The position numbers were made by a program, and so were the translations under genes. From Onthophagus taurus (taxonomy: Eukaryota > Arthropoda > Insecta > Coleoptera > Scarabaeidae), in contig NC_091973.1 of NCBI RefSeq assembly GCF_036711975.1, positions 4,464,001 through 4,528,000 of the forward strand: 64,000 bases of DNA, written 5' to 3'. Below are positions 31,201 through 60,001 of the stretch, in pieces. Within the stretch, counting starts at the first letter, position 1. Each line of letters begins with the position of its first letter. The notes under the pieces were generated by a model. That model was not told the DNA's origin, did no database searches, and saw only the letters and a list, made by a program, of their open reading frames with translations.

Positions 31201-34200
31201 TGTTAAGGGTACATTTTGCTACAATTTTTGATGTAAAAGTTTTTCTGTATCATGCTCCGGATACCGATTTTTTTTAACACTCTTCTAATTTTCACATTTT
31301 TGAAAAATTCTCTACATTGATGCATCTGGGAGCAAAAATTTTCTGCAACTTCTTACAAAATGATTCTTTTGTTATTGGCTAAACTTTAGTAGCAACCCTA
31401 ATTCGTGCAATTATTTCTTTCTATATTCTACATAATTTTGGCCAAAATTAACTTATTTGATTTTATGATACTCAAAGTATAAAAAGAGAAAAAAGGATAC
31501 AAAAAAAGGTTTTTATTGAATAGTAAGCGTGGATCACCTGCAACGACGATGAGTTACGCAACGGTTTTGGAACGCCAACATCGTCGTCGACGTTGAACGT
31601 TGAATTTCCTTTCCGGAGATAAACAATCGTAAAGCGCGATAACTCACTTCGGGAGTCTTCGTGTCAACACTAAAATCAGTTTCGCCGGAGTCAGCCTTCC
31701 TTATAGGTTGGAGACGCGTGGGCATTAATATACATAGATTAAAACCAATAACAAATACCTGAACGGTGATCTACACACACTCATACTCAACACAAACCGT
31801 CGTTTGGCCGTTTTGTGCGACAGTTCATTGTTGATAGTTGAAGTGTCCGCGCGACGGTGGTGCATGCATATATGAAATTTGAAACTTTGTAATTTTTGTA
31901 TAAAATAGTAAAATAATATGGGTACTGAAACTGATGGGAGAGGAATACCGAGCAATTCATTAGAACATTTAAGAAGTATTTTAGTGTCATCTTTGCCTCC
32001 TGAAAATATTGGTTTTTGTGATTATCAAGTTGGAGTGAAGTTAAAAGTAAAAGCGAATAATCCAACAGGTAATTTTTTCAATTATCAACGTCATCGCCGA
32101 TGTTGCCTTTTAAGTCCTGTATTCTAATGTATTCGTCGCTCTCTCTTCGCGAGCCTTCCTAATCGTAGGTGTCACGACCTTGCTTACAAGGCGAAGCTAT
32201 AAGTAACCCGATAGTCCAGAGACTGACGACGATATCGGAGAACGATATCGGAAAAGAAAAAAAAACCGAGAAGGAGAGGAGAGATTATTTCGAAAAACAC
32301 CGCGCGCGTCAGCTGTTCCGTTTCGAGAAACGCGACGAGAAGTTTTTAATTGAAAATCGCGTAATGGGTTTCGCGTGTGTCACCGTCTATTTTTAAGTCC
32401 ATATATGCATAAAGGACGTCGTTGAATAATTGGAAGAAATTGCCACAAGTGCAAGGTGCATTTCAATGCGTTGTCTTTATCGCGGATTTTAGATGGAAAT
32501 ATTTAATCATGGTCCACTAAAGTCATTTATTTTTATTTATTTTTTATTTAAATATTATCGTTTCATAAAGTTGAATGAATGATAAAATCGATAACAATTG
32601 TAAACAGGAATATTGATAAAATTACAAATACATTTGATTTGGAGATAATTTATGTGGAAATAATATGTCATGGTCCACTAAAAATTGAACCAATTTTAGT
32701 AAGAACATCGTAGATAATTAATTTATATTAACTTTCCAACATCATTCATCCGTGTTAACTGTAAGCGCGACAAGGATAAAGTAATATTTTTATCGAAAAG
32801 ATTAATAACTCAAAATTATGGTTTTATACAGTCATATCACGAACATGAATGTAAACAGAAATAATGATAAAGGTAATGTACCGTTCTGATAACACTGAAA
32901 TTACGTGCAATTTGTTTTGGATATCGACTCAAAATAATTTAATTCTTTTTAATGACTAACTTTCCAAGAAAATTATTATCACAAATTTATGGTTTTATGG
33001 TTGTATTGAATATTTTGAATTGTAAACGGGACAAAATTTTTTATTTCTGCCTTGTAATACTGGAACGGTCGGATCGCATTTGAACGTTTTATAATTGCAC
33101 CTTGTGCAAGTCGATAATAATAATATGGAGCCAAACCGATTTTCGCAACGGTCCCGATCGGAATTTAATAAAATCGCGGCAGGAATTTGAAAAAGGATGA
33201 CGCAACGAGGCGCTGTCGTTGAAATCGCACGTCTTTAAGACGCCGTAAGAGATGCAATTAAGAGCACCCGAGAAAAGCTACTTTCTGATGCTCACGGACC
33301 ATGCAAATACTACGCCGGTAAAAGCTACTTTTTGAAATTCTCCTCGTAGAAACTAGGAAATTCGTGTTTCTCGCAATTACAAAATGATTTATTTGGTCGT
33401 CTAACTCTAATTGTACGGGCAATTTGTTTTCTATAATTGAACAAGTTTTATACAAAAATATTTTTTAATTATTAAATATTAAAACTATTTTTTTTTATTT
33501 ACAGCTGGGTCTCGTCCTTCATCAGTCGCAAAAGGTAAAAAATATTCCCCAAAAAAAAATTAATAAACACCCCTAAATTCACCCATTCTATTTTCTCCTC
33601 TTTCACGTCTCTTTCTACTCTTATCTGTTCTATGTTAGATGTTCCGTGTAATTTTCTAGGAAAAACCATGCATTGGTTTGCATATGTGGGGCCAAACCCC
33701 CCCGATTACGAAGGTAAAACTCTTGAAAGGGAATACATTGGAGACTAACAACTAACAAAACGCAGTTGTCTTTCGTTAAATACTAACTAGTGACAATTTC
33801 AACATACAGAAGAAATATGTGAATGTCTTATCTGTTGTGCAACATATGCATGTTGTGTTTTTTTTAAATTCCCAAAAAAAAATTAATTATACTAATTTAA
33901 TACTAACTTTTCAGAAGATTCAAAATCCAGATTAAAATCCGTAAAGGAACGTGAAAATGAAGAGAGACAAAAGAAGCTGGATGAGCTTAAAGCACAAGCG
34001 CAAGCAGCACAACGTTTCAAGGAAAAGAAAGAGATGGAAAGGAAAATGCGACTTGAAGAAATGAAGTTCAAGGAGGACAACAGAAGGCAACAAGTGGAGG
34101 AGCGCAAGAAAATGATGAACGAGGCCGAAAGGGATCGGCTGGAAGCGATTTTAAGGCGCAATCAAGAAAGGGAGGCGCGAATAGAAGCGAAAAAACGCAA

Positions 34201-40200: not shown

Positions 40201-41444
40201 TTCATGCTACTTAGTACTCATTTTTTAATAAAAAGAAAGGTAAGACATTTTTAATTTAACTTTATTAATTTAGCTTTTTTTGGGCCAAGTAAATAAACTT
40301 ATATTTTGTTTAGTTTCTCCAGCTCCTAGTTACAGGAAATTTTGTTTTGGCCGACAGCGCCATCGATGACCGTGCAGATAAACTACGGTTTATCTCTCCC
40401 TTTACGGTCCTTGACATACCTTTTTAATATTTCCATACAAACTAATCAACATCAACTAAGTTTTGACAAAATGACTTACAGAACACGACACTACATACAA
40501 TTCAAATTTATAAATGGGTATAATTTCTCATCGCTTCCTTATTTCTACTCAAAAAATAAATACACCATCTAATATCAACGCCATATAAAAGATAGATCAT
40601 ATATTGATATAAAATTATTAACAGTATTAATAAATAAATGTTTGAAATAGTAATAAATAAATATTAAAAACACCAACGTCGACTTTTGATGTAACTTTAA
40701 TAATCTGAAAGAAGTCTTGTTTTATTTCTTGATAGTTTCTGTGTAATTTATCCTATCAAACTTTATTTTGTTGAGAAAGGTAAGGTGAATAAAATTAGAG
40801 TTTGCGCATTTTAAGCGATTTTCAACTATAACAACATCCTCAATATAATAATAACAACAGATTTTGTTATTTTACTGTATTAACATAATTAAATAGATCA
40901 AAAAATGATTAATAAACAAATATTAAAAATTGCATTGATTGTTTTATGTTGTTAACAAAATGTTATTTCATTCGACAAGCAGCCGTGTTGATTTTTTCGT
41001 TGTGTTTTTACTGCGTTGAAAAAAAAGGTAAGAAATCTTTTTTTTTTATAATTTTTCCCTCTAATCTCACTCCACGGTGGATGTTGTTTTGAATTTGCGC
41101 ACATGTTAATTTACGAGATTTTCCACCTTAATAACGTGGGTAATACAATATTAATGGCTGACGCATCCATATTTTTTTTAACGAAAAAACAATAACAAAT
41201 ACGTGTTATTTTTATTATATTATCTTTGAATCTCTTATATTTATATAACCGCGATTTTCCACGCTTTTACTCGAAATTTATTCAAGTCAAATTCATCTGA
41301 CCCTTCTTCAGGTAGGGATTCACGTTTAACTCGTAGCAAATTCACGTTTAACTCAAAGGAATTCCACAAGCTCATAGCACAGAATATCACAATATTCTGT
41401 GCTTATAGTAGCGAATAGTTTTAATACGGCTTTAATTCAATATT
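40200..41444 (+). promoter_or_regulatory. Diverged first-exon/promoter modules upstream of the main array
   Basis: Three good donors, AAAG/GTAAGAC (40240), GAAAG/GTAAGG (40781) and AAAAAG/GTAAGAA (about 41029), end A-rich exon-like sequence. After the last two comes a degenerate copy of the intronic block found in the main array: TTTGCGCATTTTAAGCGATT at 40801, and TTGCGCAC...TAATAACG near 41094. GACAGCGCCATCGATG (about 40360) is a weak form of the GC motif. A perfect hairpin lies at 41376-41403. Expression is inferred. Confidence 0.5.
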
Positions 41445-44400
41445 GTAATTAATTAATATTAGAGATTCCAGCGCCATCTGGTGATTTTATATTGGTAACA
41501 AATTTCTTTTTTGTTGGTTGGCAGCTTTGTAACTTTTTCATTTCTTTCGACCGTTAGTTTTGGTTTGAATCGTTGTGTTTTCGACTCCAACTTTCATTGT
41601 GTTAAAAAAGGTAGGAATTATTACCTTTTTTTTTGAAATATTACTTTAATAATAATCGGATTTATGATTTACGCGGAGCAGAATACTTTGTTTATGCGCA
41701 ATCGACGCTTTACGCGATTTTGACCCATAATAACTTCGGCAACATAACCTCAAATGCCATGCTTTTTTTTACCACGAACTATAATTCCAGATAATTCATT
41801 TCTTATTCTGCATTTTTTTCATTTTTACTTTATTACGGATTTAAAACAACAAATACATTAATTACATCAAAAATAGTAATTAATTAATATTAGAAATCGA
41901 CACCCACGCCCCCTGGTGGTATTTGTTAGTAGCAAAACGTCTCTTCTCAGTTGCTGGGCAGCCATGTTGCTTTTTCATTTCTTTTGACCGTTAGTTTTGG
42001 TTTGAATCGTTGTGTTTTCGGCTCCAATTTTCATTGTGTTGAAAAAGGTAGGTATTCTTAACTTTTTTTTCCAATTTTACTTTAATAATAATCGGATTTA
42101 TGATTCACGCCGTGAAGAATACTTTGTTTATGCGCATATGATGTTTTACGCGATTTTGACCCATAATAACTTCGGCAACATAACCTCAAATGCCATGCTT
42201 TTTTCTACCACGAAAATAATTTGTATAATTCATTTTTTCTTCCAATTTTTTTAAATTTTTGCTTTATTACGGATTTAAAACAACATATATCTACGTTAAT
42301 TACATCAAAAAAATAGTAATTAATTAATATTATAAATGCCAACGCCCTGTGGTCGTTTCTTGTTGGTAACGAAACGTCTCTTCTTAGTAGCTAGGCAGCC
42401 ATATTGCTTTTTCATTTCTTTTGACCGTTAGTTTTGGTTTGAATCGTTGTGTTTTCGACTCCAACTTTCATTGTGTTAAAAAAGGTAGGAATTATTACCT
42501 TTTTTTTGAAATTTGACTTTAATAATAATCTGATTTATGATTTACGCGGTGCAGAATTCCTTGTTTATGCGCAGACGATGTATCACGCGATTTTGACCCA
42601 TAAAACTTCGGCAACATAACCTCAAATGCCATGTTCTTTTTAACACGAAAATAATTCTTGATAATTCATTTTTTATTTTACATTTTTTAAATTTTTACAT
42701 TATTACGGGTTTAAAACAACATATACATTAATTACATCAAGAAATTACTAATTAATTAATATTAGAAATCAACGCCCTCGCCCTCTTGTGTTTTTTGTTG
42801 GTAGCAAAACGTCTCTTCTTAGTTGCTAGGCAGCCATATTGCTTTTTCATTTCTTTCGACCGTTAGTTTTGGTTTGAATCGTTGTGTTTTCGACTCCAAT
42901 TTTCATTGTGTTGAAAAAGGTAGGAATTCTTAACTTTTTTTTGCAATTTTACTTTAATAATAATCGGATTTATGATTTACGCGGAGCAGAATACTTTGTT
43001 TATGCGCAATCGACGTTTTACGCGATTTTGACCCATAATAACTTCGGCAACATAACCTCAAATGCATGCTTTTTTTTACCACGAACTATAATTCTAGATA
43101 ATTCATTTCTTATTTTGCATTTTTTTCATTTTTACTTTATTACGGATTTAAAACAACAAATACATTAATTACATTAAAAATAGTAATTAATTAATATTAG
43201 AAATCGACACCCACGCCCTCTGGTGGTTTTTGTTGGTAGCAAAACGTCTCTTCTTAGTTGCTGGGCAGCCATGTTGCTTTTTCATTTCTTTTGACCGTTA
43301 GTTTTGGTTTGAATCGTTGTGTTTTCGACTCCAATTTTCATTGTGTTGAAAAAGGTAGGAATTCTTAACTTTTTTTTGCAATTTTACTTTAATAATAATC
43401 GGATTTATGATTTACGCGGAGCAGAATACTTTGTTTATGCGCAATCGACGTTTTACGCGATTTTGACCCATAATAACTTCGGCAACATAACCTCAAATGC
43501 CATGCTTTTTTTTACAACGAACTATAATTCTAGATAATTCATTTCTTATTCTGCATTTTTTTCATTTTTACTTTATTACGGATTTATAACAACAAATACA
43601 TTAATTACATCAAAAATAGTAATTAATTAATATTAGAAATCGATGCCCACGCCCTCTGGTGGTTTTTGTTGGTAGCAAAACGTCTCTTCTTAGTTGCTGG
43701 GCAGCCATGTTGCTTTTTCATTTCTTTTGACCGTTAGTTTTGGTTTGAAGCGTTGTGTTTTCGACTCCAATTTTCATTGTGTTGAAAAAGGTAGGAATTC
43801 TTAACTTTTTTTTGCAATTTTACTTTAATAATAATCGGATTTATGATTTACGCGGAGCAGAATACTTTGTTTATGCGCAATCGACGTTTTACGCGATTTT
43901 GACCCATAATAACTTCGGCAACATAACCTCAAATGCCATGCTTTTTTTTACCACGAACTATAATTCTAGATAATTCATTTCTTATTCTGCATTTTTTTCA
44001 TTTTTACTTTATTACGGATTTAAAACAACAAATACATTAATTACATTAAAAATAGTAATTAATTAATATTAGAAATCGATGCCCACGCCCTCTGGTGGTT
44101 TTTGTTGGTAGCAAAACGTCTCTTCTTAGTTGCTAGGCAGCCATGTTGCTTTTTCATTTCTTTCGACCGTTAGTTTTGGTTTGAATCGTTGTGTTTTCGA
44201 CTCCAATTTTCATTGTGTTGAAAAAGGTAGGAATTCTTAACTTTTTTTTGTAATTTTACTTTAATAATAATCGGATTTATGATTCACGCCGTGAAGAATA
44301 CTTTGTTTATGCGCAGACGGTGTTTCACGCGATTTTGACCCATAATAACTTCGGCAACATAACCTCAAATGCCATGCTTTTTTTTACCACGAACTATAAT

Positions 44401-47400
44401 TCTAGATAATTCATTGCTTATTCTGCATTTTTTTCATTTTTACTTTATTACGGATTTAAAACAACAAATACATTAATTACATCAAAAATAGTAATTAATT
44501 AATATTAGAAATCGACGCCCACGCCCTCTGGTGGTTTTTGTTGGTAGCAAAACGTCTCTTCGTAGTTGCTAGGCAGCCATGTTGCTTTTTCATTTCTTTT
44601 GACCGTTAGTTTTGGTTTGAATCGTTGTGTTTTCGACTCCAATTTTCATTGTGTTGAAAAAGGTAGGAAATCTTAACTTTTTTTTGCAATTTTACTTTAA
44701 TAATAATCGGATTTATGATTTACGCGGAGCAGAATACTTTGTTTATGCGCAATCGACGTTTTACGCGATTTTGACCCATAATAACTTCGGCAACATAACC
44801 TCAAATGCCATGCTTTTTTTTACCACGAACTATAATTCTAGATAATTCATTTCTTATTCTGCATTTTTTTCATTTTTACTTTATTACGGATTTAAAACAA
44901 CAAATACATTAATTACATCAAAAATAGTAATTAATTAATATTAGAAATCGACGCCCACGCCCTCTGGTGGTTTTTGTTGGTAGCAAAACGTCTCTTCTTA
45001 GTTGCTAGGCAGCCATGTTGCTTTTTCATTTCTTTTGACCGTTAGTTTTGGTTTGAATCGTTGTGTTTTCGACTCCAATTTTCATTGTGTTGAAAAAGGT
45101 AGGAATTCTTAACTTTTTTTTGCAATTTTACTTTAATAATAATCGGATTTATGATTTACGCGGAGCAGAATACTTTGTTTATGCGCAATCGACGTTTTAC
45201 GCGATTTTGACCCATAATAACTTCGGCAACATAACCTCAAATGCCATGCTTTTTTTTACCACGAACTATAATTCTAGATAATTCATTTCTTATTCTGCAT
45301 TTTTTTCATTTTTACTTTATTACGGATTTAAAACAACAAATACATTAATTACATCAAAAATAGTAATTAATTAATATTAGAAATCGACACCCACGCCCTC
45401 TGGTGGTTTTTGTTGGTAGCAAAACGCCTCTTCTTAGTTGCTGGGCAGCCATGTTGCTTTTTCATTTCTTTTGACCGTTAGTTTTGGTTTGAATCGTTGT
45501 GTTTTCGACTTCAATTTTCATTGTGTTGAAAAAGGTAGGAATTCTTAACTTTTTTTTGCAATTTTACTTTAATAATAATCGGATTTACGCGGAGCAAAAT
45601 ACTTTGTTTATGCGCAATCGACGTTTTACGCGATTTTGACCCATAATAACTTCGGCAACATAACCTCAAATGCCATGCTTTTTTTTACCACGAACTATAA
45701 TTCGAGATAATTCATTTCTTATTCTGCATTTTTTTCATTTTTACTTTATTACGGATTTAAAACAACAAATACATTAATTACATCAAAAATAGTAATTAAT
45801 TAATATTAGAAATCGACACCCACGCCCTCTGGTGGTTTTTGTTGGTAGCAAAACGTCTCTTCTTAGTTGCTGGGCAGCCATGTTGCTTTTTCATTTCTTT
45901 TGACCGTTAGTTTTGGTTTGAAGCGTTGTGTTTTCGACTCCAATTTTCATTGTGTTGAAAAAGGTAGGAATTCTTAACTTTTTTTTGCAATTTTACTTTA
46001 ATAATAATCGGATTTATGATTTACGCGGAGCAGAATACTTTGTTTATGCGCAATCGACGTTTTACGCGATTTTGACCCATAATAGCTTCGGCAACATAAC
46101 CTCAAATGCCATGCTTTTTTTTACCACGAACTATAATTCTAGATAATTCATTTCTTATTCTGCATTTTTTTCATTTTTACTTTATTACGGATTTAAAACA
46201 ACAAATACATTAATTACATCAAAAATAGTAATTAATTAATATTAGAAATCGACGCCCACGCCCTCTGGTGGTTTTTGTTGGTAGCAAAACGTCTCTTCTT
46301 AGTTGCTAGGCAGCCATGTTGCTTTTTCATTTCTTTTGACCGTTAGTTTTGGTTTGAATCGTTGTGTTTTCGACTCCAATTTTCATTGTGTTGAAAAAGG
46401 TAGGAAATCTTAACTTTTTTTTGCAATTTTACTTTAATAATAATCGGATTTATGATTTACGCGGAGCAGAATACTTTGTTTATGCGCAATCGACGTTTTA
46501 CGCGATTTTGACCCATAATAACTTCGGCAACATAACCTCAAATGCCATGCTTTTTTTTACAACGAACTATAATTCTAGATAATTCATTTCTTATTCTGCA
46601 TTTTTTTCATTTTTACTTTATTACGGATTTATAACAACAAATACATTAATTACATCAAAAATAGTAATTAATTAATATTAGAAATCGATGCCCACGCCCT
46701 CTGGTGGTTTTTGTTGGTAGCAAAACGTCTCTTCTTAGTTGCTGGGCAGCCATGTTGCTTTTTCATTTCTTTTGACCGTTAGTTTTGGTTTGAAGCGTTG
46801 TGTTTTCGACTCCAATTTTCATTGTGTTGAAAAAGGTAGGAATTCTTAACTTTTTTTTGCAATTTTACTTTAATAATAATCGGATTTATGATTTACGCGG
46901 AGCAGAATACTTTGTTTATGCGCAATCGACGTTTTACGCGATTTTGACCCATAATAACTTCGGCAACATAACCTCAAATGCCATGCTTTTTTTTACCACG
47001 AACTATAATTCTAGATAATTCATTTCTTATTCTGCATTTTTTTCATTTTTACTTTATTACGGATTTAAAACAACAAATACATTAATTACATTAAAAATAG
47101 TAATTAATTAATATTAGAAATCGATGCCCACGCCCTCTGGTGGTTTTTGTTGGTAGCAAAACGTCTCTTCTTAGTTGCTAGGCAGCCATGTTGCTTTTTC
47201 ATTTCTTTCGACCGTTAGTTTTGGTTTGAATCGTTGTGTTTTCGACTCCAATTTTCATTGTGTTGAAAAAGGTAGGAATTCTTAACTTTTTTTTGTAATT
47301 TTACTTTAATAATAATCGGATTTATGATTCACGCCGTGAAGAATACTTTGTTTATGCGCAGACGGTGTTTCACGCGATTTTGACCCATAATAACTTCGGC

Positions 47401-50400
47401 AACATAACCTCAAATGCCATGCTTTTTTTTACCACGAACTATAATTCTAGATAATTCATTGCTTATTCTGCATTTTTTTCATTTTTACTTTATTACGGAT
47501 TTAAAACAACAAATACATTAATTACATCAAAAATAGTAATTAATTAATATTAGAAATCGACGCCCACGCCCTCTGGTGGTTTTTGTTGGTAGCAAAACGT
47601 CTCTTCGTAGTTGCTAGGCAGCCATGTTGCTTTTTCATTTCTTTTGACCGTTAGTTTTGGTTTGAATCGTTGTGTTTTCGACTCCAATTTTCATTGTGTT
47701 GAAAAAGGTAGGAATTCTTAACTTTTTTTTGCAATTTTACTTTAATAATAATCGGATTTATGATTTACGCGGAGCAGAATACTTTGTTTATGCGCAATCG
47801 ACGTTTTACGCGATTTTGACCCATAATAACTTCGGCAACATAACCTCAAATGCCATGCTTTTTTTTACCACGAACTATAATTCTAGATAATTCATTTCTT
47901 ATTCTGCATTTTTTTCATTTTTACTTTATTACGGATTTAAAACAACAAATACATTAATTACATCAAAAATAGTAATTAATTAATATTAGAAATCGACACC
48001 CACGCCCTCTGGTGGTTTTTGTTGGTAGCAAAACGCCTCTTCTTAGTTGCTGGGCAGCCATGTTGCTTTTTCATTTCTTTTGACCGTTAGTTTTGGTTTG
48101 AATCGTTGTGTTTTCGACTTCAATTTTCATTGTGTTGAAAAAGGTAGGAATTCTTAACTTTTTTTTGCAATTTTACTTTAATAATAATCGGATTTACGCG
48201 GAGCAAAATACTTTGTTTATGCGCAATCGACGTTTTACGCGATTTTGACCCATAATAACTTCGGCAACATAACCTCAAATGCCATGCTTTTTTTTACCAC
48301 GAACTATAATTCGAGATAATTCATTTCTTATTCTGCATTTTTTTCATTTTTACTTTATTACGGATTTAAAACAACAAATACATTAATTACATCAAAAATA
48401 GTAATTAATTAATATTAGAAATCGACACCCACGCCCTCTGGTGGTTTTTGTTGGTAGCAAAACGTCTCTTCTTAGTTGCTGGGCAGCCATGTTGCTTTTT
48501 CATTTCTTTTGACCGTTAGTTTTGGTTTGAAGCGTTGTGTTTTCGACTCCAATTTTCATTGTGTTGAAAAAGGTAGGAATTCTTAACTTTGTTTTGCAAT
48601 TTTACTTTAATAATAATCGGATTTATGATTTACGCGGAGCAGAATACTTTGTTTATGCGCAGATGATGTTTCACGCGATTTTGACCCATAAATCTTCGGC
48701 AACATAACCTCAAATACCATGCCTTTTTTTTAACACGAAAATGATTCTTGGTAACTCATCTTTTATTTTACATTTTTTTAATTTTTACTTTATTACGGGT
48801 TAAAAACAACATATACATTAATTACACCAAGAAATTAGTAATTAATTAATATTAGAAATCAACGCACACGCCCTCTTGTGTTTTTTCTTGGTAGCAAAAC
48901 GTCTCTTCTTAGTTGCTAGGCAGCCATGTTGCTTTTTCATTTCTTTCGACCGTTAGTTTTGGTTTGAATCGTTGTGTTTTCGACTCCAACGTTCATTGTG
49001 TTAAAAAAGGTAGGAATTATTACCTTTTTTTTGAAATTTTACTTTAATAATAATCGGATTTATGATTTACGCGGAGCAGAATACTTTGTTTATGCGCAGA
49101 CGACGTTTTACGCGATTTTGACCCATAATAACTTCGGCAACATAACCTCAAATGCCCTGCTTTTTTTTAACACGAAAGTAATTCTGGATAACTCATTTTT
49201 TATTTTAAATTTTTTTAATTTTTACTTTATTACGGGTTTAAAACAACATATACATTAATTACATCAAAAATAGTAATTAATTAATATTAGAAATCGATGC
49301 CCACGCCCTCTGGTGGTTTTTGTTGGTAGCAAAACGTCTCTTCTTAGTTGCTAGGCAGCCATGTTGCTTTTTCATTTCTTTTGACCGTTAGTTTTGGTTT
49401 GAATCGTTGTGTTTTCGACTCCAATTTTCATTGTGTTGAAAAAGGTAGGAATTCTTAACTTTTTTTTTGCAATTTTACTTTAATAATAATTGTATTTATG
49501 ATTTACGCGGAGCAGAATACTTTGTTTATGCGCAGACGACGTTTTATGCGATTTTGACCCTTAATAACTTCGGCAACATAACCTCAAATGCCATGCTTTT
49601 TTTTTACCACGAAATATAATTCTACATAATTCATTTTTTATTCTCCATTTTTTTAATTTTTGCGTTATTACGGTTTTAAAACAATAAATACATTAATTAC
49701 TTAAAAACATAGTAATTAATTAATATTGGAAGTCAACGCCTTGCCCTCTGGTGGTTTTTGTTGGTAGCAAATGTCTCTTCTTACTTGCTAGGCAGCCATA
49801 TTGCTTTTTCATATCTTTTCACCGTTAGTTTTGGTTTGAATCGTTGTGTTTTCGACTCCAACTTTCATTGTGTTAAAAAAGGTAGGAATTATTACCTTTT
49901 TTTTGAAATTTTACTTTAATAATAATCGGATTTATGATTTACGCGGTGCAGAATACTTTGTTTATGCGTAGACGACGTTTTACGCGATTTTGACCCATAA
50001 TAACTTCGGCAACATAACCTCAAATGCCATGCTTTTTTTTAACACGAAAATAATTCTTGATAACTCATTTTTTATTTTACATTTTTTTAATTTTTACTTT
50101 ATTACGGGTTTAAAACAACATATACATTAATTACATCAAGAAATTAGTAATTAATTAATATTAGAAATCGACGCCCACGCCCCCTGGTGGTTTTTGTTGG
50201 TAGTAAAAGTCTCTTCTTAGTAGCTAGGCAGCCATATTGCTTTTTCATTTCTTTTGACCGTTAGTTTTGGTTTGAATCGTTGTGTTTTCGACTCCAACTG
50301 TCATTGTGTTAAAAAAGGTAGGAATTATTACATTTTTTTTTGAAATTTTACTTTAATAATAATCGGTTTTATGATTTACGCGGTGCAGAATTCCTTGTTT

Positions 50401-51060
50401 ATGCGCAGACGATGTTTCACGCGATTTTGACCCATAAAACTTCGGCAACATAACCTCAAATCCATGCTTTTTTTAACCACAAAAATAATTCTTGATAACT
50501 CATTTTTTCTTCTAATTTTTATTTTATTACGGATTTACAACAACAAATACATTAATTACATAAAGAAATAGCAATTAATTAATATTAGAAATCCCAACGT
50601 CATGGGGTGGTTTTTTGTTGGTATCAAAACGTCTTTTTTTAGTTGCTAGGCAACCATGTTGCTTTTTAATTTCTGTTGACAGTTAGTTTTGGTTTGAACC
50701 GTTGTTTTCGTCTCCAATTTTAATTGTATTAAAAAAGGTAGGAATAATTTAACTTTTCGTTGCATTTTGCTTTAATAATAATCGCTTTTATGTTTTACGC
50801 GGTGTAGAGTACTTTGTTTATGCGCAGATGATGTTTCACGCGATTTTGACCCATAATAACTTCGGCAACATAACCTCAAATGTTCAGCTTTTTTTACCAC
50901 GAAAATAATTCTTGATAACTCATTTTTTAACCTACATTTTTTTAATTTTTACTTTATTACGGATTTAAAACAACAAATAATCGTTTTCCAATTACTATTG
51001 TGTCGAAAAAGTTAGGATTTCGTAATTTTACTTTAATAATAATCAAATTAATAATAAAAA
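41445..51060 (+). repeat. ~436-bp tandem array: 22 monomers, each with a putative promoter and first exon
   Basis: Each monomer contains, in order, AATTAATTAATATTAGAAAT; a GC motif CGCCCTCTGGTGG; AGGCAGCCATGTTGC; an exon-like stretch ending TTGTGTTGAAAAAG/GTAGGAAT; and an intronic block (ATGCGCA, CACGCGATTTTGACCC, TAATAACTTCGGCAACATAA, CCTCAAATGCCATG). Intact donors begin near 41609, 42048, 42485, 42920, 43355, 43791, 44227, 44663, 45099, 45535, 45964, 46400, 46836, 47272, 47708, 48144, 48573, 49010, 49445, 49882, 50318 and 50738. A 23rd, broken donor (GTTAGG) is at 51010. The period is 435-437 bp, or 429 where 7 bp are deleted. The single acceptor at 51185 makes each donor a candidate alternative 5'-UTR exon of the gene at 51212. 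Edge units are more diverged than central ones. Confidence 0.85.
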
Positions 51061-51211
51061 GTACTTTACTCATGCGCAAACGATATTTCACGCGATTTTA
51101 TTCCTTAATAACTTTGGCGACATAACCTCAAATTGTATCCCTTGAAACTTTATTCTTGTAATAATATTTTTTTCAATATTTGCAGGATAAATTTTAAGCC
51201 TAATCATCAAG

Positions 51212-52346
51212 ATGGGAAAATGGGCGGCAAAACTCGGTAACAAATTAACTGTTTAATAAATTTTACTTTTAATTTAATTTTTTTCTTTTTATTAATTATA
51301 GCTAAATCAATGAGTAGGTCACCTCAGCGTAATAGGGAACGTCGTGATAGGGAACGGCGTGATAGGGAAAGGCGTGATAGGGAAAGGCGTAATAGGATGT
51401 CTTTGTCTGTGTCTATGTCACCCATGAGATTTTCTTCTCCAAGTACTAGTCAAGGAAGACATCGATCACCAATGGGGTTGGCGCCCATCGTTAGACCGAA
51501 GCTGAGCCGAGAATTAGAACTGTGGTAAATATTTAAATTTGGATTTTATTCTTTACTAATTTTTTGTAATTTAGTGGCCGTGCTCAAAGATCTAGAAGTC
51601 TACCAGATCGATACAGTTCGGTGGACTTTAGGAGGGCTTTAGGGACTGGGAGGTCCAGGAGGTCAACTCGTGCACCCTCAAGGGAATTGGTCCGGCAACC
51701 AGAACCGATTGCAGGGCCAAGTACCTCACCTAGGCCATCTGCTTCACCTAGGTCATCTGCCTCACCTAGGCCATCTGCTTCACCTAGGTCATCTGCCTCA
51801 CCTAGGCCATCTGCTTCATCTAGGTCATCTGCCTCACCTAGGCCATCTGCTTCACCTAGGTCATCTGCCTCATCTAGGGCATCTGCCTCACCTAGGTCAT
51901 CTGCTTCACTTAGGAAATCTGCCTCACCTAGGTCATCTGCCTCACCTAGGAAATCTGCATCACCTAGGTCATCTGCCTCATCTAGGAAATCTGCATCACC
52001 TAGGTCATCTGTCTCACCTAGAAAATCTGCCTCACCTAGGCCATCTACATCATCGACTGTTTCTACCCAGTCACATTGGAAAATTTTCGCTTGGGGGTTA
52101 GGCGAAATCGACGTAGACGCTCTACGTCAACAACTATTACGTTATGGGCCCGTCCAAAACGTCTCCGTTTACCCCAACCCACGCAAAAATAATAACGAAG
52201 CCGATATTTACTTTAAAACCAAGAAAAGCGCCCTAGCAGTACTTCGTGCCATTCGTTTGGGCAAATTTTACGACGCCTTTAAATTGTCTTCGGCCGTTAT
52301 GGGACCAGCTGCTAATAAACTTAGAAAGAATCGTCGAAATAAATAA
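51212..52346 (+). CDS. RS/SASPR-rich protein with C-terminal RRM-like domain (paralog A)
   Basis: Coding exons are 51212-51236, 51302-51524 and 51575-52346, giving 1020 nt and 339 residues in frame. The first exon part starts after the acceptor at 51185, with ATG in good context. It has a MGKWAAKL start and four RRDRE-type units (residues ~20-40). The family motif LPDRYSSVDFRR is at residues 92-103. About 18 SASPRx hexapeptides come from an 18-bp minisatellite (residues ~133-240). An RRM-like domain runs from about residue 250 to 330 (WKIFAWG strand, LRQQLLRYG helix, EADIYFKTK strand, LAVLRAIRLGK helix). Canonical aromatic RNP residues are reduced, so RNA binding is uncertain. The SR-protein-like layout suggests a nuclear RNA role (inference). 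I do not recognise the family. Confidence 0.8.
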
Positions 52347-52416: not shown

Positions 52417-52850
52417 TGTTAATAAAAGTATTATTTATAAATAATTTTCGATAGGTTTAGGTCTTAATTACGTATCTTATTCTATTATTTATCGTTTGTA
52501 AACTAACCAAGTTAGTTATTACCAATTTTGCACTAAGAAATAAAAAAAAATTGTCAGTTTTGTTAATAAAAGTATTATTTATAAATAATTTTCGATAGGT
52601 TTAGGTCTTAATTACGTATCTTATTCTATTATTTATCGTTTGTAAACTAACCAAGTTAGTTATTACCAATTTTGCACTAAGAAATAAAAAAAAATGTCAG
52701 TTTTGTTAATAAAAGTATTATTTATAAATAATTTTCGATAGGTTTAGGTCTTAATTACGTATCTTATTCTATTATTTATCGTTTATAAACTAACCCAGTT
52801 AGTTATTACCAATTTGGTACCAAAAAAAATTTAAAAAATTTGTCAGTTTC
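52417..52850 (+). repeat. ~143-bp unit x3 in the 3' end of paralog A, homologous to the MAP7 3' UTR
   Basis: Units start with GTTAATAAAAGTATTATTTA at about 52419, 52561 and 52703. Each holds GGTCTTAATTACGTATCTTA, TATCGTTTGTAAACTAACC and, in the first two, CTAAGAAATAAAAAAAA, so each has its own AATAAA signals. The third unit is diverged at its end (TGGTACCAAAAAAAATT), where it is nearer to the single MAP7 copy at 39190-39300. Confidence 0.85.
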
Positions 52851-52899: not shown

Positions 52900-53860
52900 A
52901 TTTCCAATAAAAAATAACGTTTAATTAAAAATCTTTATTTTATTTCAAAAACCCTCATAATGTTAATAAATTTATTAAAAAGATAAAATTAAATAATTGG
53001 ATTTTCCCACCAAAATAATCGTCCAATCCGTGTTAGATACGTTGAAGCTGCGCAGACTGCGTGGTACGTGATTCTCGACCTTAACAGTTCTCTCCTTTTC
53101 ATAACCTCAACCATCGTGTTTAGAAGTTTTTAAAATCAACTAATAAAATTAATAGTAAATAAAAAAGTGTTAATAACGTTTAATTAAAAATCTTTATTTT
53201 ATTTCAAAACCCCTCATAATGTTAATAAATTTATTAAAAAGATAAAAATAAATAATTGGATTTTCCCTCCTTTTCATAACCTCAATCATCATGTTTAGAA
53301 GTTTTTAAAATCAACTAATAAAATTAATAGTAAATAAAAAAGTGTTAATAACGTTTAATTAAAAATCTTTATTTTATTTCAAAAACCCTCACAATGTTAA
53401 TAAATTTATTAAAAAGATAAAAATAAATAATTGAATTTTCCCGCCAAAATAATCGTCCAATCCGCGTTAGAGACGTTGAAGCTGCGCAGACTGCGTGGTA
53501 CGTGATTCTCGACCTTAACAGTTCCCTCCTTTTCATAACCTCAACCATCGTGTTTAGAAGTTTTTAAAATCAACTAATAAAATTAATAGTAAATAAAAAA
53601 GTGTTAATAACGTTTAATTAAAAATCTTTATTTTATTTCAAAAACCCTGACAATGTTAATAAATTTATTAAAAAGATAAAAATAAATAATTCAATTTTCC
53701 CGCCAAAATAATCATCCAATCCGCGTTAGAGACGTTCAAGCTGCGCAGACTGCGTGGTACGTGATTCTCGACCTTAACAGTTCCCTCCTTTTCATAACGT
53801 CAACCATCGTGTTTAGAAGTTTTTAAAATCAACTAATAAAATTAATAAACAGTAAAGTGT
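52900..53860 (+). repeat. ~260-bp unit x4 carrying the conserved intronic/promoter block
   Basis: TAACGTTTAATTAAAAATCT recurs at about 52915, 53174, 53348 and 53608. The second unit lacks about 86 bp. The full units carry GAAGCTGCGCAGACTGCG (or a one-base variant), ACGTGATTCTCGACCTTAAC and TTTTCATAACCTCAACC. These match block by block the element that follows first-exon donors elsewhere in the cluster. The repeat lies directly upstream of paralog B and may be an amplified piece of its promoter. Confidence 0.8.
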
Positions 53861-53869
53861 TTATTATAA

Positions 53870-54694
53870 ATAATTTAGTGCTTTGTTAAGGTTTTATATT
53901 TACTCATTCCCAATCAACGAGTAACTAAAAAACAAATTAGTGGAAAGTAACCGACGTCGGCGTTGCTGCCGTTCGTTTTCGGTTAACAATCGCATTTTAG
54001 TCTTTGTTTAATCATCCTATTTTAATTCAGGAGATAGAGGTAAGGATTAAAATTAATTATTAATTGTAAATGAAGTATTGAGCATGCGTACACTACATTT
54101 CGGGCGATTTTCAACCATAACCACGATGTTATAACCTCACCACTGCTATTTCTTTACGTAAACGTGTTTTCAAATGTAATTAAATTATATAAAATTATAA
54201 ATCAATTAGGGTTAAGTTAAAGATAGGAGTTATTAAAAAGAGGGAATTAATTTGAACTAGATGGTGCTTTTATCGCATGTATTACTTCGGTAACGTTTAT
54301 GTTGATTGCTCATTTCTAAGTAAAACTCGTCGGGGTTATTGTATTTCAGAGAGGTAAGAAATTAAATCAAGTGCTTTATTTTTGTTAAAATTAAGAGATT
54401 GCATTTTTCGTGATTACCAACATTATCTAATTTAATCTTTTGGTTCATCTATTAATTCTATATGATAATGAATCATCTTATAGAAAATTCTAAAATTTTT
54501 ATTCCCAAGAATATTGTGTTTTGATTGTATTATATAGCTTATAATAGTATGTAATTTAAACCAAAAATTTCGATTACAAAATATTCGTATCGAAACAGAT
54601 AAGAACATAATTAAGAATACAAAGCACAACAACTCTATTACTTACTGCCTTGAGTTACTCTTTGATATAAAAAAATATTTTTTTTAAGATAAAA
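53870..54694 (+). promoter_or_regulatory. Two candidate first exons and promoter of paralog B
   Basis: Candidate non-coding first exons end at GATAGAG/GTAAGG (54039) and CAGAGAG/GTAAGAA (54353). The first is followed by GCATGCGTACAC, GGGCGATTTTCAACCATAAC and GTTATAACCTCACC. The second starts near ACTAGATGGTGCT (54257), a weak form of the GC motif, and is followed by a degenerate block (GATTGCATTTTTCGTGATT). Both could splice to the acceptor at 54688, seven bases before the ATG. Confidence 0.55.
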
Positions 54695-55259
54695 ATGAAA
54701 GTACGTTGTACTTCCCCGACTGGAGCGATACCGCAAAATGTTAATAAGGGATGGTATAAAACACCCCAGACGAAATATTTCGAGAGATTACTACGCCCTT
54801 GGTGGTTACCCCTCATGCAGAAGAACCAAAGGCGAGGAACACGGTAAATGTTGAAATAATTTCTTTCTTTTTCAAATTTTTTAATTTTACAGAAAAACCA
54901 AAAGGACTAGATCTTCCCCAAAGCGCTATAATCCGGAGGATTTCACTTCAAATCGTAAGTCAGCAAACCGAGCTATGAAATCTTGGATGATTAGCACTTA
55001 CGGCCACGGGAATGTAAATTTACACACATTCCGTGGTTATGTTGATGTTTTTGGAGTGATTAGAAACATACGCATCTGTCGAAATCACAGCGAAAAAACT
55101 TATCAAGCCGATATTTATTATAAAACGAAGAAATCCGCTTTGGATGCACTCCGAGCTATTCGTAATCGCAAATTAGCTGAAAATATTGGACTTACCTCTG
55201 GCGTTTTGGCCGAAAAAAATCCTAGATACTTACAGTTTCGTCCTAACAACACCTCTTAA
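54695..55259 (+). CDS. RRM-like protein (paralog B)
   Basis: Coding exons are 54695-54843 and 54893-55259, giving 516 nt and 171 residues, with a 49-bp intron in phase 2. This is the same place and phase as in paralogs A and D, just before the RSSP/RSRS motif. The first exon codes a basic, Trp-containing leader unlike the others. The family motif is the diverged SPKRYNPEDF (58-67). The RRM-like domain starts near residue 78 (KSWMISTYG, then VDVFGVIRNIRI, QADIYYKTKKSALDALRAIRN). It has no SASPR repeats. AATAAA is at 55309. It is the most diverged member of the cluster. Function unknown. Confidence 0.8.
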
Positions 55260-55379
55260 ATAATATTTATTTTTGTGGTGATTGTACATAACTAAGAAAT
55301 GCTAAGTTAATAAATACTATTTCTTTAACAAATTTTGTGTTTTATTTATTTTTTGTAAAAAGATTATTTGATTAAGTTT

Positions 55380-57560
55380 AAAAATGTTGTAAAAAAACGA
55401 ATACTTATCAATTATTCTTGGACTTTTCATGGATTATAAATAAAAGTTTGATCTTTTTAATACAATTATTCATTTGGAAAAATAACTTTCAGTTGATGAG
55501 ATAAATATTTTTAAAGATGACAATTTTTATAGGTTATTTTTTTTGATTAAGTTTAAAAATTTGTAAAAAATCGAATACTTATCAATTATTCTTGGACTTT
55601 TCATGGATTATAAATAAAAGTTTGATCTTTTTAATACAATTATTCATTTGGAAAAATAACTTTTAGTTGATGAGATAAACATTTTTAAAGTTGATGACAA
55701 TTTTTCTTGATTAAGTTTAAAAATTTGTAAAAAATCGAATACTTATCAATTATTCTTGAACTTTTCTTGGATTATAAATAAAAGTTTGATCTTTTTAATA
55801 CAATTATTCATTTGGAAAAATAACTTTTAGTTGATGAGATAAACATTTTTAAAGTTGATAACAATTTTTATAGGTTATTTTTTTTGATTAAGTTTAAAAA
55901 TTTGTGGAAAATCGAATACTTATCAATTATTCTTATACTTTGCATGGATTATAAATAAAAATTTGACCATTTTAATACAATTATTCACTTGGAAAAATAA
56001 CTTTTAGTTTATGAGATAAACATTTTTAAAGTTAATAATTTTTATAGGTTTTTTTTTTGATTAAGTTTAAAAATTTGTAAAAAATCGAATACTTATCAAT
56101 TATTCATGAACTTTTCATGGATTATTAATAAAAGTTTGATCTTTTTAATACAATTATTCATTTGGAAAAATAACTTTTAGTTGATGAGATAAACATTTTT
56201 AAAGTTAATAATTTTTATAGGTTATTTTTTTTGATTAAGTTTAAAAATTTGTAAAAAATCAAATAGTTTTCAATTATTCTTGAACTTTTCATGGATTATA
56301 AATAAAAGTTTGATCTTTTTAATACACTTATTTATTTGGAAAAATAACTTTTAGTTGATGAGATAAACATTTTTAAAGTTGATGACAATTTTTATAGGTT
56401 ATTTTTTTTGATTAAGTTTAAAAATTTGTAAAAAATCGAATACTTATCAATTATTCTTGGACTTTTCTTGGATTATAAATAAAAGTTTGATCTTTTTAAT
56501 ACAATTATTTATTTGGAAAAATTACTTTTAGTTAATGAGATAAACATTTTTAAAGTTGATGACAATTTTTTTTGATTAAGTTTAAAAATTTGTAAAAAAT
56601 CGCATACTTATCAATTATTCTTAAACTTTTCATGGATTATAAATAAAAGTTTGATCTTTTTAATACAATTATTCATTTGGAAAAATAACTTTTAGTTTAT
56701 GAGATAAACATTTTTAAAGTTGTAACAATTTTTATAGGTTATTTTTTTTGATTAAGTTTAAAAATTTGTGGAAAATCGAATACTTATCAATTATTCTTGG
56801 ACTTTTCATGGATTATAAATAAAAGTTTGATCTTTTTAATACAATTATTCATTTGGAAAAATAACTTTTAGTTGATGAGATAAACATTTTTAAAGTTGAT
56901 AACAATTTTTATAGGTTATTTTTTTTTTGATGAAGTTTTAAAATTTTGTAATAAATCGAATACTTATCAATTATTCTTGAACTTTTCATGGATTATAAAT
57001 AAAAGTTTGATCTTTTTAATACAATTATTCAGTTGGAAAAATAACTTTTAGCTGATGAGAAACATTTTTAAAGTTGATGACAATTTATATAGGTTATTTT
57101 TTTTGATTAAGTTTAAAAATTTGTAAAAAATCAAATAGTTTTCAATTATTCTTGATCTTTTTATGGATTATAAATAAAAGTTTGATCTTTTTAATACAAT
57201 TATTCATTTGGAAAAATAACTTTTAGTTGATGAGATAAACATTTTTAAAGTTGATGACAATTTTTATAGGTTATTTTTTTTGATTAAGTTTAAAAATTTT
57301 TTAAAAATCGTATACTTATCAATTATTCTTGAACTTTTCATGCATTATAAATAAAAGTTTGATCTTTTTAATACAATTATTTATTTGGAAAAATAACTTT
57401 TAGTTGATGAGATAAACAGTTTTAAAGTTGATGACAATTTTTATAGGTTATTTTTTTTGATTAAGTTTAAAAATTTGTAAAAAATCAAATACTTATCAAT
57501 TATTCTTCAACTTTTTATGGATTATAAATAAAAGTTTGATCTTTTTAATACAATTATTAA
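55380..57560 (+). repeat. ~175-bp satellite, 13 units, made of 3'-end/poly(A)-type sequence
   Basis: GGATTATAAATAAAAGTTTG recurs near 55431, 55605, 55769, 55945, 56118, 56291, 56469, 56633, 56810, 56988, 57163, 57340 and 57520. Each unit contains AAATAAAAG (a poly(A)-type signal), CATTTGGAAAAATAACTTTT and TGAGATAAACATTTTTAAAG. A single, more diverged copy lies at 60215-60390, just past paralog D. The array fills the space between the convergent 3' ends of paralogs B and C. Confidence 0.9.
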
Positions 57561-57730: not shown

Positions 57731-58234
57731 TTAAACAGAATGAAAATGACTAAGAGGAGTTGTTATCACTCGTTCAGACGACTGTGGCCTTTCTACCATT
57801 TCAGCGGAAGTAATGCCAAAATCGTAAAATTTACCAATACGAATTGCACGAAGTGCTGATACTGCTCCTTTCATTGTTGTGAAACTAATATCGGCCTTAT
57901 TTTTGTTGATGCCGTCGCAATGTTGAATACGAATTTGTTCAATAGTCCCATAACACGATAATTGCTTTCGTAAAGCATTTATGTCGACTTCTCCAAAGTC
58001 CCAAGCGAAAATCATCCAAAGTTCTGCAGGTTTTTGAGGCGTAGCAGGAGGAGATGGCGTTCTAAATATCACTTCTGACGATATGGTTGGAGTCAAATTC
58101 AATTTTGAAATTATCTCAATTTCCGGGGAAGGTTGGGTATTTTTGGGCGCCTTAAAGTTCACAGATTGATACCTATTCGGTACAGCTCCACACCTCATAG
58201 ATCGGCGACGAATCGATTTAGTTTGAGCAGGCAT
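57731..58234 (-). CDS. RRM-like protein (paralog C)
   Basis: 167 residues in one exon from ATG 58234. The frame is open a little further up, but TTTTAG/TTGG at 58247 looks like the acceptor of a non-coding first exon, so this ATG is preferred. It has a basic start with SIRRRS, family motif VPNRYQSVNF (18-27), a Pro/Thr linker, and the RRM-like domain from Trp73 (WMIFAWDFGEVDINALRKQL, KADISFTTMKGAVSALRAIR). It lacks the coding intron of A, B and D. Convergent with B and divergent from D. AATAAA on the minus strand is at 57711-57706. Function unknown. Confidence 0.8.
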   Translation of the reverse strand: MPAQTKSIRRRSMRCGAVPNRYQSVNFKAPKNTQPSPEIEIISKLNLTPTISSEVIFRTPSPPATPQKPAELWMIFAWDFGEVDINALRKQLSCYGTIEQIRIQHCDGINKNKADISFTTMKGAVSALRAIRIGKFYDFGITSAEMVERPQSSERVITTPLSHFHSV

Positions 58235-58246
58235 TTTGTTAACCAA

Positions 58247-59374
58247 CTAAAAGATAGGTTAGGTGTTAAGGTTGACAATCGTGTAAAATTCATTCAGCGC
58301 AAACTCAAACTCAATTCAGCTTATTTACAGAGTTGATCGTTTTAAATGAATTATAAAGCATATTAGAACAAAATTAGATTAATTAGGTACCTTTTCTGGC
58401 TTCGATATCAAAGAGAACAGCGTTCTTGACGAGATTTGGTTAGAAAAGGGATTAAACAAAATGGACGTTGTTTAACGTTAGCAAGGCATGTTCGATTAAG
58501 ACTTCGAAAATAATTAAAGTCGAAAATCGTTTGAAATATAATCTGCGCATGCACGACTTGTTATTTAAAATAAAATGTGTGAAATGGAAACAAATTTACC
58601 GTTTAAACCAGATTAAAATTGGGAATTAAATGATGTTAACGATATTTGTCAAAATATGCGCCCTCTACAACTAAGATTTATTTGTTAAATTTCTTAATAA
58701 ATTTATTTATTTTTAATAATGACTAATTAATAATGTGTATTTAGATCGTTTTTTGATGTGGTACTAAATAAAAGTTAAATTAAATAAATTAATATTTCGA
58801 AAAATAATCAGTGTAGAGGGCGCTAGTGATCCCTTTTGACAGTTATTGCTAATCGGTTCGCATCATCTAAATTTTTGAATTCATAATTCATTGAAAAAGG
58901 TATGAGTTAATAATAATTTTTCGCCCAAAACGATCAGATATCTCCCGGCATTCTTTAAAGAATGCGTGGAGTCTGCGTATACTGAATTTCAAGCGATTTT
59001 CGACCACTTATTTCGAAAAATAATCATTGTAGAGGGCGTTGTGATCGTTTTCGACTAATCCCATATTGACGGTTATTATTAATTGGTTAATTGGTTTAAT
59101 AATTTATTGAAAAAGGTAAGATTTAATAATATTTTGCAACAAAAATTATCCCGCATTCCTAAAAGAATGTGTGGAGTCTGCGTATACTGAATTTCAAACG
59201 ATTTTCGACCTTAATGACTTAGGGTAACATAACCACAAAATGCCTTGTTTAAATTTTTTTTAAACATAAAAAACGTTTTTTTTCGAATGAAAATATTTTA
59301 ACGGATTAGTTTAAAAGACGTTTTGGTTATTAAACATGTTTAAAGAAGTTTTAATTTTCTTTTTTCAACATCAG
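58247..59374. promoter_or_regulatory. Divergent promoter region of paralogs C (-) and D (+)
   Basis: Minus strand, for C: GTAGAGGGCGC (58668-58658), exon-like DNA, donor AAACG/GTAAAT (58600) and then GCATGCGCAG with TTTCAAACGATTTTCGAC (58560-58500); a second donor AAAAG/GTACCT is at 58390. Plus strand, for D, two modules: GTAGAGGGCGCTAG (58813) to TTGAAAAAG/GTATGAG (58899), then CTGCGTATACTG and CAAGCGATTTTCGACC (58975-59005); and GTAGAGGGCGTTG (59030) to TTGAAAAAG/GTAAGA (59115), then CTGCGTATACTG, AAACGATTTTCGACC and AACATAACCACAAA (59173-59240). The order of parts is the same on both strands. Confidence 0.65.
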
Positions 59375-59382
59375 CTGAGAAA

Positions 59383-60001
59383 ATGGAAAAAAATCGTACC
59401 ATTGTATCATCTGAGGATGAAAAGGGAGATGAACCTGATTCTAGATCAAGATCTATATCACCATCTTTGAGTCCATCAGTACGGTAAATAAGCAAAGAAC
59501 GTTTTGTTTTACTTTTATACATTAATAAGATTTTTTTTTATTTTAAGCCGCTCTAATAGGGTTAGATCAATTCCGGATAGGTACCAATCCGTTGACTTTA
59601 GGCGAACCATGCCTTCGCGAAATAGGAGTGCTCCAAGACCACTTTCAACTACAACAACATCATCGGGGTCAACTGAGGCCTCATCCACGACCACCGAGTC
59701 AACTCAAAGATCATCTTCTGCACCTTATCTGGTTTTTGCTTGGGGATTTGGAGAAGTGGATGTTAATGCTTTGCGCCGTCAGTTGTCGCGTTATGGATCC
59801 GTGCAATATATACGTCTTTATCATAATAGTCGTCGCAATAATAATAAAGCCGAAATGTTTTTCAAAACGAAGAGAGGTGCCCTGTCAGCACTTCGTGCCA
59901 TTCGCCTTGGAAAATTGTTCCACGACTTTGGAATTTCCTATGCTGTCATGGGAGATAGAAATCCTAGAGCTGCGCGAATGCACGCTGAAAATGACCAATA
60001 G
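59383..60001 (+). CDS. RRM-like protein (paralog D)
   Basis: Coding exons are 59383-59483 and 59548-60001, giving 555 nt and 184 residues. The 64-bp intron sits in phase 2 before the family motif, as in A and B. The acidic first exon ends in an RSRS-type stretch. The motif is IPDRYQSVDFRR (42-53), then a Thr/Ser-rich linker (64-92), and the RRM-like domain from about 93 to 165 (LVFAWGFGEVDVNALRRQL, SRYGSVQYIRLYH, KAEMFFKTKRGALSALRAIR). It is closest to A in the domain and motif. An AATAAA cluster is at 60172. Function unknown; an RNA-binding or protein-protein RRM-like role is inference. Confidence 0.8.

Follow-up and report, generated by a model that had tools for sequence, protein, structure and literature searches.

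In the intergenic spacer of ribosomal DNA (rDNA), repeated upstream promoter units precede one transcription unit. Clustered protocadherin (Pcdh) and UGT1A genes carry tandem first exons with their own promoters, accompanied by CTCF sites in Pcdh, and these exons are spliced to shared exons. One account of human rDNA spacer promoters describes them as insulated by CTCF and associated with RNA polymerase II (PMC13004009). The nearest known case to the locus analysed here is the human DXZ4 macrosatellite, for which the pertinent passage of PMC3491370 gives promoter activity in each monomer and binding of CTCF. Our locus is a tandem array of ~436-bp monomers lying directly 5' of a protein-coding gene, here gene A, in the beetle Onthophagus taurus (assembly GCF_036711975.1, contig NC_091973.1). 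The window, that is the whole stretch analysed, comprises 64,000 nucleotides (positions 4,464,001 to 4,528,000) and also holds the paralogs B, C and D. With moderate confidence, we explain the array as units of start, first exon and intronic block multiplied by unequal exchange, several of which are probably usable as alternative starts splicing to position 51186.

Like human DXZ4, the locus is a tandem array; most of its monomers hold a putative CTCF-core word, and they may have promoter activity and bind CTCF. DXZ4 is non-coding and its monomers are kilobases long, whereas the unit repeated here measures ~436 bp and has a splice donor directed towards a single coding gene. The rDNA spacer promoters serve rRNA genes, whereas this array stands before a protein-coding gene with a candidate spliced first exon. 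Protocadherin and UGT1A first exons are coding and diverse; the gene A candidates are non-coding and near-identical and would therefore add no protein diversity. A search of the open-access literature by title and abstract, subscription papers being outside its scope, turned up no paper describing a comparable array next to a protein-coding gene.

Tandem Repeats Finder (TRF) delimits the array at 41472-50979, with period 436, 21.9 copies and 93% matches, and alignment on the donor yields 22 monomers (m01 to m22) and a terminal remnant. The donor-like plus-strand sites run from 41611 and 42048 to 50738 and 51012 (n=23), at a spacing of 420-437 and with a final step of 274, and AAAAAGGTAGGA, with one mismatch allowed, is found 26 times in the window, where shuffles predict 0.8. 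Used as a query against the genome (290.8 Mb, 33 contigs; the window is G000:C8:4464001-4528000), one monomer returned 23 matches in a single place, all in the array, these counts being lower bounds because very common words were skipped; copies elsewhere, which would mark dispersed satellite DNA or a transposable element, were not among them. The monomers carry distinct variants, which argues against an assembly artefact. Identity reaches 100% (rounded) in the pairs m06/m13, m07/m14, m08/m15 and m10/m16 and is 96-100% throughout m04-m16; the outer copies are less alike, m22 least of all (80-85% to the rest). Such a pattern is the usual mark of unequal exchange with recent multi-unit duplication and suggests that history here. 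The original prediction of about 22 tandem ~436-bp copies, with a donor kept in 22 of them and lost only in the last, is borne out. It needs correcting in that the copies are not uniform, as the identical pairs and m22 show, and in that two older, diverged units 5' of the array (A5a and A5b, Table 1) were overlooked. It had also missed the unit pairs at C and D, the intronic block, the CTCF-core word and the acceptor-like sites of the monomers.

Donors and acceptors were scored with splice-site tables, and their ranks are shares among all GTs or AGs of the window. The exon-like part of the monomer ends in AAAAAG/GTAGG, of which GTAGG is intact in 22/22 monomers and GTAGGA in 21 (m02 has GTAGGT); the donor of the remnant is broken to GTTAGG. 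The 11-mer AAAAAGGTAGG has no variant in the 22 copies, when ~15.3 intact copies are expected from the per-copy divergence under independence. The consensus array donor falls within the top 1.0% of GTs. Other donors rank in the top 0.4% (A5a, A5b, B1, B2 and D2), at 1.6% (D1) and at 3-4% (both at C). Between 50740 and 51240 three AGs score positive; the strongest of them, in the top 0.65% of AGs, is that of the acceptor ending at 51185. The donors and the shared acceptor that a putative cluster of alternative first exons would use are present in the sequence.

The array unit is related to the 5' regions of the neighbouring family members. We searched the window, with the array masked, using a profile of the 22 monomers. 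It matched the remnant (E 2e-20), 40941-41185 (1e-11), D2 (2e-6) and D1 (4e-4), and four places at B through the block (E 0.002, 0.003, 0.004 and 0.012). Matches at C (E 0.05) and A5a (E 0.2) are not significant alone and are supported by blastn between units. Exact TTGARAAAGGTA occurs 19 times in the window (0.09 expected), in 16 array monomers, A5a, D1 and D2; the six remaining monomers, and A5b as well, deviate immediately 5' of that donor. Homology to the related genes' 5' regions comprises donor word and block at D, and the block at B and C. D1 and D2 are 77% identical over 220 aligned columns, and the upstream region of D has no further copy in the genome. The monomer looks to be descended from the 5' region of gene A itself. 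A third old unit, proposed at 40240 (AAG/GTAAGA), was left out, having a good donor but no detectable block.

The intronic block, of ~60 nt, recurs at all four genes. Of the ten donors examined, nine are followed by a block that starts 23-89 nt further on; the tenth, B2, has none within 260 nt. Ten of the 12 aligned block copies from the four genes show no internal gap over the core; A5a is gapped and D1 cut short. A 35-place pattern of the block (at most three mismatches) matched five times in 291 Mb, once at B and twice each at C and D, and its reversed control not at all; the copies at A and in the B repeats exceed this mismatch limit and were detected by the profile instead. The 259-bp repeats of B are without the AAAAAG donor and have GTG/GTACGT within the block (top 1.5% of GTs). 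A transposon origin of the block was considered and rejected: a 20-place pattern found 276 matches in the genome, but the longer pattern matches only this cluster. Twenty-nine of these 276 loci, all outside the window, were inspected by eye and showed the end of a transposon-like family, with no similarity to the block beyond that word. This family occurs genome-wide, with inverted ends containing CGATTTCCAACCCTTATAAC that are often 2-2.4 kb apart.

The stretches preceding the donors are poor in ATG. For nine diverged donors (A5a, A5b, one array copy, B1, B2, two at C, D1 and D2), the 65 nt on the 5' side contain a single ATG, against a mean of 7.7 in dinucleotide shuffles (P 0.002) and of 8.8 in nine random 65-nt stretches of the window (P 0.001 for one or fewer). 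Over 80 nt there are three, against 10.3 when shuffled (0/500 shuffles). The same 65-nt stretches contain CAT 13 times, and the 65 nt just 3' of the donors hold nine ATGs. Sliding 65-nt windows that start 20-80 nt 5' of the donor hold 1-3 ATGs and those starting at 100-200 nt 6-8; on the 3' side, starts at 0-120 nt give 9-12, then 7-8. In all 22 array copies, the last 80 nt before the donor are without ATG. This scarcity is consistent with a short non-coding first exon, such as would form part of a 5' untranslated region (5'UTR).

Variation among the monomers is unevenly distributed. Across m01-m21, 149 of 436 columns are variable: 7/65 in the exon end (60 nt) plus donor, 13/60 in the block and 129/311 in the rest, which divides into the upstream part (positions 1-90, 43/90), the intron between (26/78) and an AT-rich spacer (60/143). 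The exon-end-plus-donor and block islands differ from the rest (Fisher P 2e-7), and one of 435 circular shifts was equally low. A blind scan placed the 60-column window of lowest variation at positions 90-149, the exon end (P 0.0016). Substitutions per cell over 22 copies are 0.021 at positions 76-150, 0.032 in the block, 0.038 in the spacer, 0.043 in the intron and 0.054 upstream. The reduction is clear for the exon end and slight for the block.

Putative protein-binding sites were sought with CTCF-core and YY1 consensus words. The CTCF-core consensus is exact in 17/22 monomers, always on the minus strand; the rest of the window has no further match, and 118 kb taken from elsewhere in the genome contain none. 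Genome-wide, and with the array included, it is matched 607 times and its reversed control 47 times; for a narrower form the figures are 502 and 16. The YY1-like CCATNTTG is found in 21/22 monomers and also 5' of the C2 and D2 donors. A composite of the CTCF word with TTTTGACA was tried as a general promoter word and dropped, its one genome match lying outside the window.

The monomer would be the 5' unit of a locus-restricted, four-member gene family. Its upstream part holds the CTCF-core and YY1-like words; a non-coding first exon, short and free of ATG, would follow and end in TTGAAAAAG/GT, and the block would lie in intron 1. Unequal exchange has probably multiplied such units repeatedly, leaving a pair at D and another at C, repeats of the block at B and, at gene A, two old units, 22 young ones and the remnant. 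Every intact unit of A could in principle start an RNA, its own donor being spliced to the shared acceptor at 51185/51186. RNAs from any unit would encode the same protein, so the array could alter only the amount, timing or robustness of expression. Of the promoter-plus-first-exon copies originally proposed, the first-exon identity has gained support from the comparison with D, the block at four genes, the few ATGs and the pattern of variation; some 22 active starts continue to be a prediction. We put forward tentatively the stronger version, which would be the equivalent of rDNA spacer promoters at a coding gene and in which two dozen near-identical, interchangeable promoter/first-exon units, most with a CTCF-like site, change in number by unequal exchange and so set the expression dose. 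If many units are active, promoter copy number, not gene copy number, would be a fast-mutating dial on expression. Even if most copies are silent, the locus shows 5' units akin to one another that were duplicated repeatedly at adjacent genes, together with an intronic element found only there.

Several observations weigh against many functional starts. Invariant 11-mer windows number 34 of 426 in the monomer, the donor included, so an invariant 11-mer is not rare in the array, and 22 intact donors are not 22 tests because the copies are not independent. The ATG test is weakened by low counts (3-5) in windows starting 220-260 nt 5' of the donor and by 12 other AGGTA[ATG]G sites, which average 0.5 ATG per 65 nt. 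In 17/22 monomers, an ATG lies 81-85 nt 5' of the donor, so that the ATG-free footprint holds only if transcription starts 3' of it. The low-variation islands were picked after the alignment had been viewed, and the block has scarcely fewer substitutions per cell than the AT-rich spacer. The YY1-like word is common (12 further places in the window and 12 in the 118 kb of other sequence), CTCF-core words occur in other tandem arrays of the genome too, and seven other arrays of period >100 bp lie inside the same window.

These neighbouring arrays favour the leading alternative, a serious one although we consider it less likely: that a 5' region was caught in the tandem duplication common here and that only one unit is live, whether old (near 40.8-41.0 kb) or the last still intact (50.7 kb), the other copies being passengers homogenised by exchange. 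Unequal exchange typically duplicates several units together and leaves the edges divergent, and both features of the array agree with this alternative. So does the GPI2/PIG-C gene of the same genome (L077:2179-4065 = G000:C1:1438679-1440565), which has five 377-bp tandem copies of a CTCF-core-bearing upstream region plus the first coding part. These copies, like those at A, lie just 5' of a start codon; they differ in including a coding part, and four upstream copies run into a stop. Mouse Dxz4 is described in the relevant passage of PMC3491370 as transcribed from one promoter flanking the array. Since human DXZ4 and mouse Dxz4 differ in this respect, that passage offers precedents for both many starts and a single start. 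However, passenger copies sit poorly with variation that is uneven and lowest at exon end and donor, and with a donor intact in every monomer.

A further alternative, improbable in our judgement, is that the block, the CTCF-core word or both were multiplied as enhancer, insulator or boundary, the exon being carried along. The block, not the TTGAAAAAG donor, is common to all four genes, the 259-bp repeats of B included, and the terminal remnant has kept the block while losing its donor. CTCF-core words are 13-31 times commoner than their reversed controls, and among the first 100 of 502 sites 38 fall in 15 clusters (within 1 kb). Five of these clusters have at least three sites, and the four inspected (L077-L080) are all tandem arrays, partly by choice, as regular spacing drew attention to them. 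Nevertheless, exon end and donor are less variable than the block, the part with the CTCF-core word is the most variable of all, and the exact word is absent from 5/22 monomers. The donor-like site inside the B repeats removes one argument against function; it is roughly balanced by the acceptor-like site at D1, which removes one argument against monomers serving as internal exons.

That last arrangement, with one promoter 5' of the array and a long RNA in which the monomers are optional internal 5'UTR exons (acceptor 61/65, donor 151), is the least probable and very unlikely: the acceptor-like AGs at consensus positions 61 and 65 (top 1.2% and 2.6%), GGCAG in 21/22 monomers and weaker AGs 44-57 nt 5' of the A5a, A5b and D1 donors (top 4.0%, 6.6% and 4.4%) speak for it, but the better context CTAGGCAG is kept in just 12/22, and D2, B1, B2 and both C donors have no AG in the top 20% within 120 nt on their 5' side. 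Given the same AGs, 51185 is not the only possible acceptor, contrary to the original prediction. Acceptor scores discriminate poorly in this window, the modelled acceptors of A, B, C and D ranking from 0.65% to 26%.

Table 1. Features of the gene A array and of its paralogs, in window coordinates (m09 serves as the example monomer)
Feature	Position	Strand	Basis
Older diverged unit A5a; donor 40780 (GAGAAAG/GTAAGG), block 23 nt past donor	40560..40862	+	blastn, weak profile hit (E 0.2), donor score, TTGARAAAGGTA at 40771
Older diverged unit A5b; donor 41028 (AAAAAAAG/GTAAGA) and block	40941..41185	+	profile hit, E 1.1e-11
Tandem array, 22 monomers (~436 bp) and remnant with mutated donor	41461..51012	+	TRF, donor register, alignment, genome matches
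Putative CTCF-core word CCACCAGAGGGCG, m09	44958..44970	-	exact match to CTCF-core consensus
Candidate first-exon part, m09; 65 nt ending AAAAAG, no ATG	45034..45098	+	variation, ATG counts
Donor GTAGG, m09	45099..45103	+	invariant in 22/22 monomers
Block, m09	45175..45244	+	two core strings kept in 21/22 and 22/22 monomers; aligned with copies from four genes
Terminal remnant block (block kept, donor lost)	51068..51136	+	profile, alignment
Gene A exon 2, acceptor at 51185, ATG at 51212	51186..51236	+	gene model, acceptor score
Gene A exon 3	51302..51524	+	gene model
Gene A exon 4, S/R/P-rich repeats and RRM-like domain	51575..52346	+	Pfam, gene model
259-bp repeats, one of them shortened, 5' of paralog B; block matched three times, always with a donor-like GTG/GTACGT inside it	52913..53856	+	
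Paralog B block, 45 nt past candidate donor 54040; second candidate donor 54354 without block within 260 nt	54078..54154	+	
Paralog B main coding exon	54893..55259	+	gene model
Paralog C coding exon	57731..58246	-	gene model
Paralog C 5' units; candidate donors 58390 and 58599 (weak, top 3-4%)	blocks 58267-58301 and 58515-58549	-	
Unit D1 of paralog D; AGAGGGCGC word, donor 58900 (GAAAAAG/GTATGA), block	58793..59005	+	profile, blastn
Unit D2 of paralog D; donor 59116 (GAAAAAG/GTAAGA), block	59009..59248	+	profile, blastn
Paralog D exon 2, ATG shortly past acceptor, as in A	59375..59483	+	gene model
Paralog D exon 3, RRM-like	59548..60001	+	Pfam, gene model

The gene A model reads through and encodes arginine/serine-rich repeats followed by a C-terminal RRM-like domain. 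As modelled, A and D follow a common plan of non-coding exon 1, acceptor and an ATG at most 30 nt later. The product of the family is weakly RRM-like, not a confirmed RRM member: against RRM_1 (PF00076), A, B and D score 14.5, 15.6 and 16.4 bits, below the curated cut-off of 20.7, whereas C gives no match. When the four proteins were combined in a profile, CUGBP Elav-like chains were its best matches among solved structures (E 0.00077 and 0.001). A protein search of the genome with D as the query found only four copies, A-D, all inside the window, though no search was aimed at retrocopies showing the exon 1-exon 2 junction. Paralogs C and D are arranged head to head, with GAGGGCG words mirrored at 58659 (-) and 58816 (+), within 58390-59116.

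Elsewhere in the genome, tandem arrays that otherwise differ in sequence hold clusters of CTCF-core words. An exon-end-like piece with a CTCF-type word is repeated about eight times, at ~180 bp per copy, in L078:2561-3991, just 5' of a coding exon that has no Pfam hit, and this array is probably intronic. L079:2641-5000 and L080:18-1976 are two further CTCF-core-bearing arrays, of 292 and 303 bp. Within the window, further tandem arrays occupy 9554-11278 (147 bp), 17589-18530 (327 bp), 28521-31342 (153 bp), 52417-52849 (144 bp), 55367-57558 (177 bp) and 60673-63314 (174 bp). RNA families and tRNAs were not detected in the window. The same contig begins (G000:C8:1-800) with (CCCAA)n, that is, TTGGG-type telomere repeats, which are reported from some scarabaeoid beetles (PMC8233369) and from a lacewing (PMC12564400).

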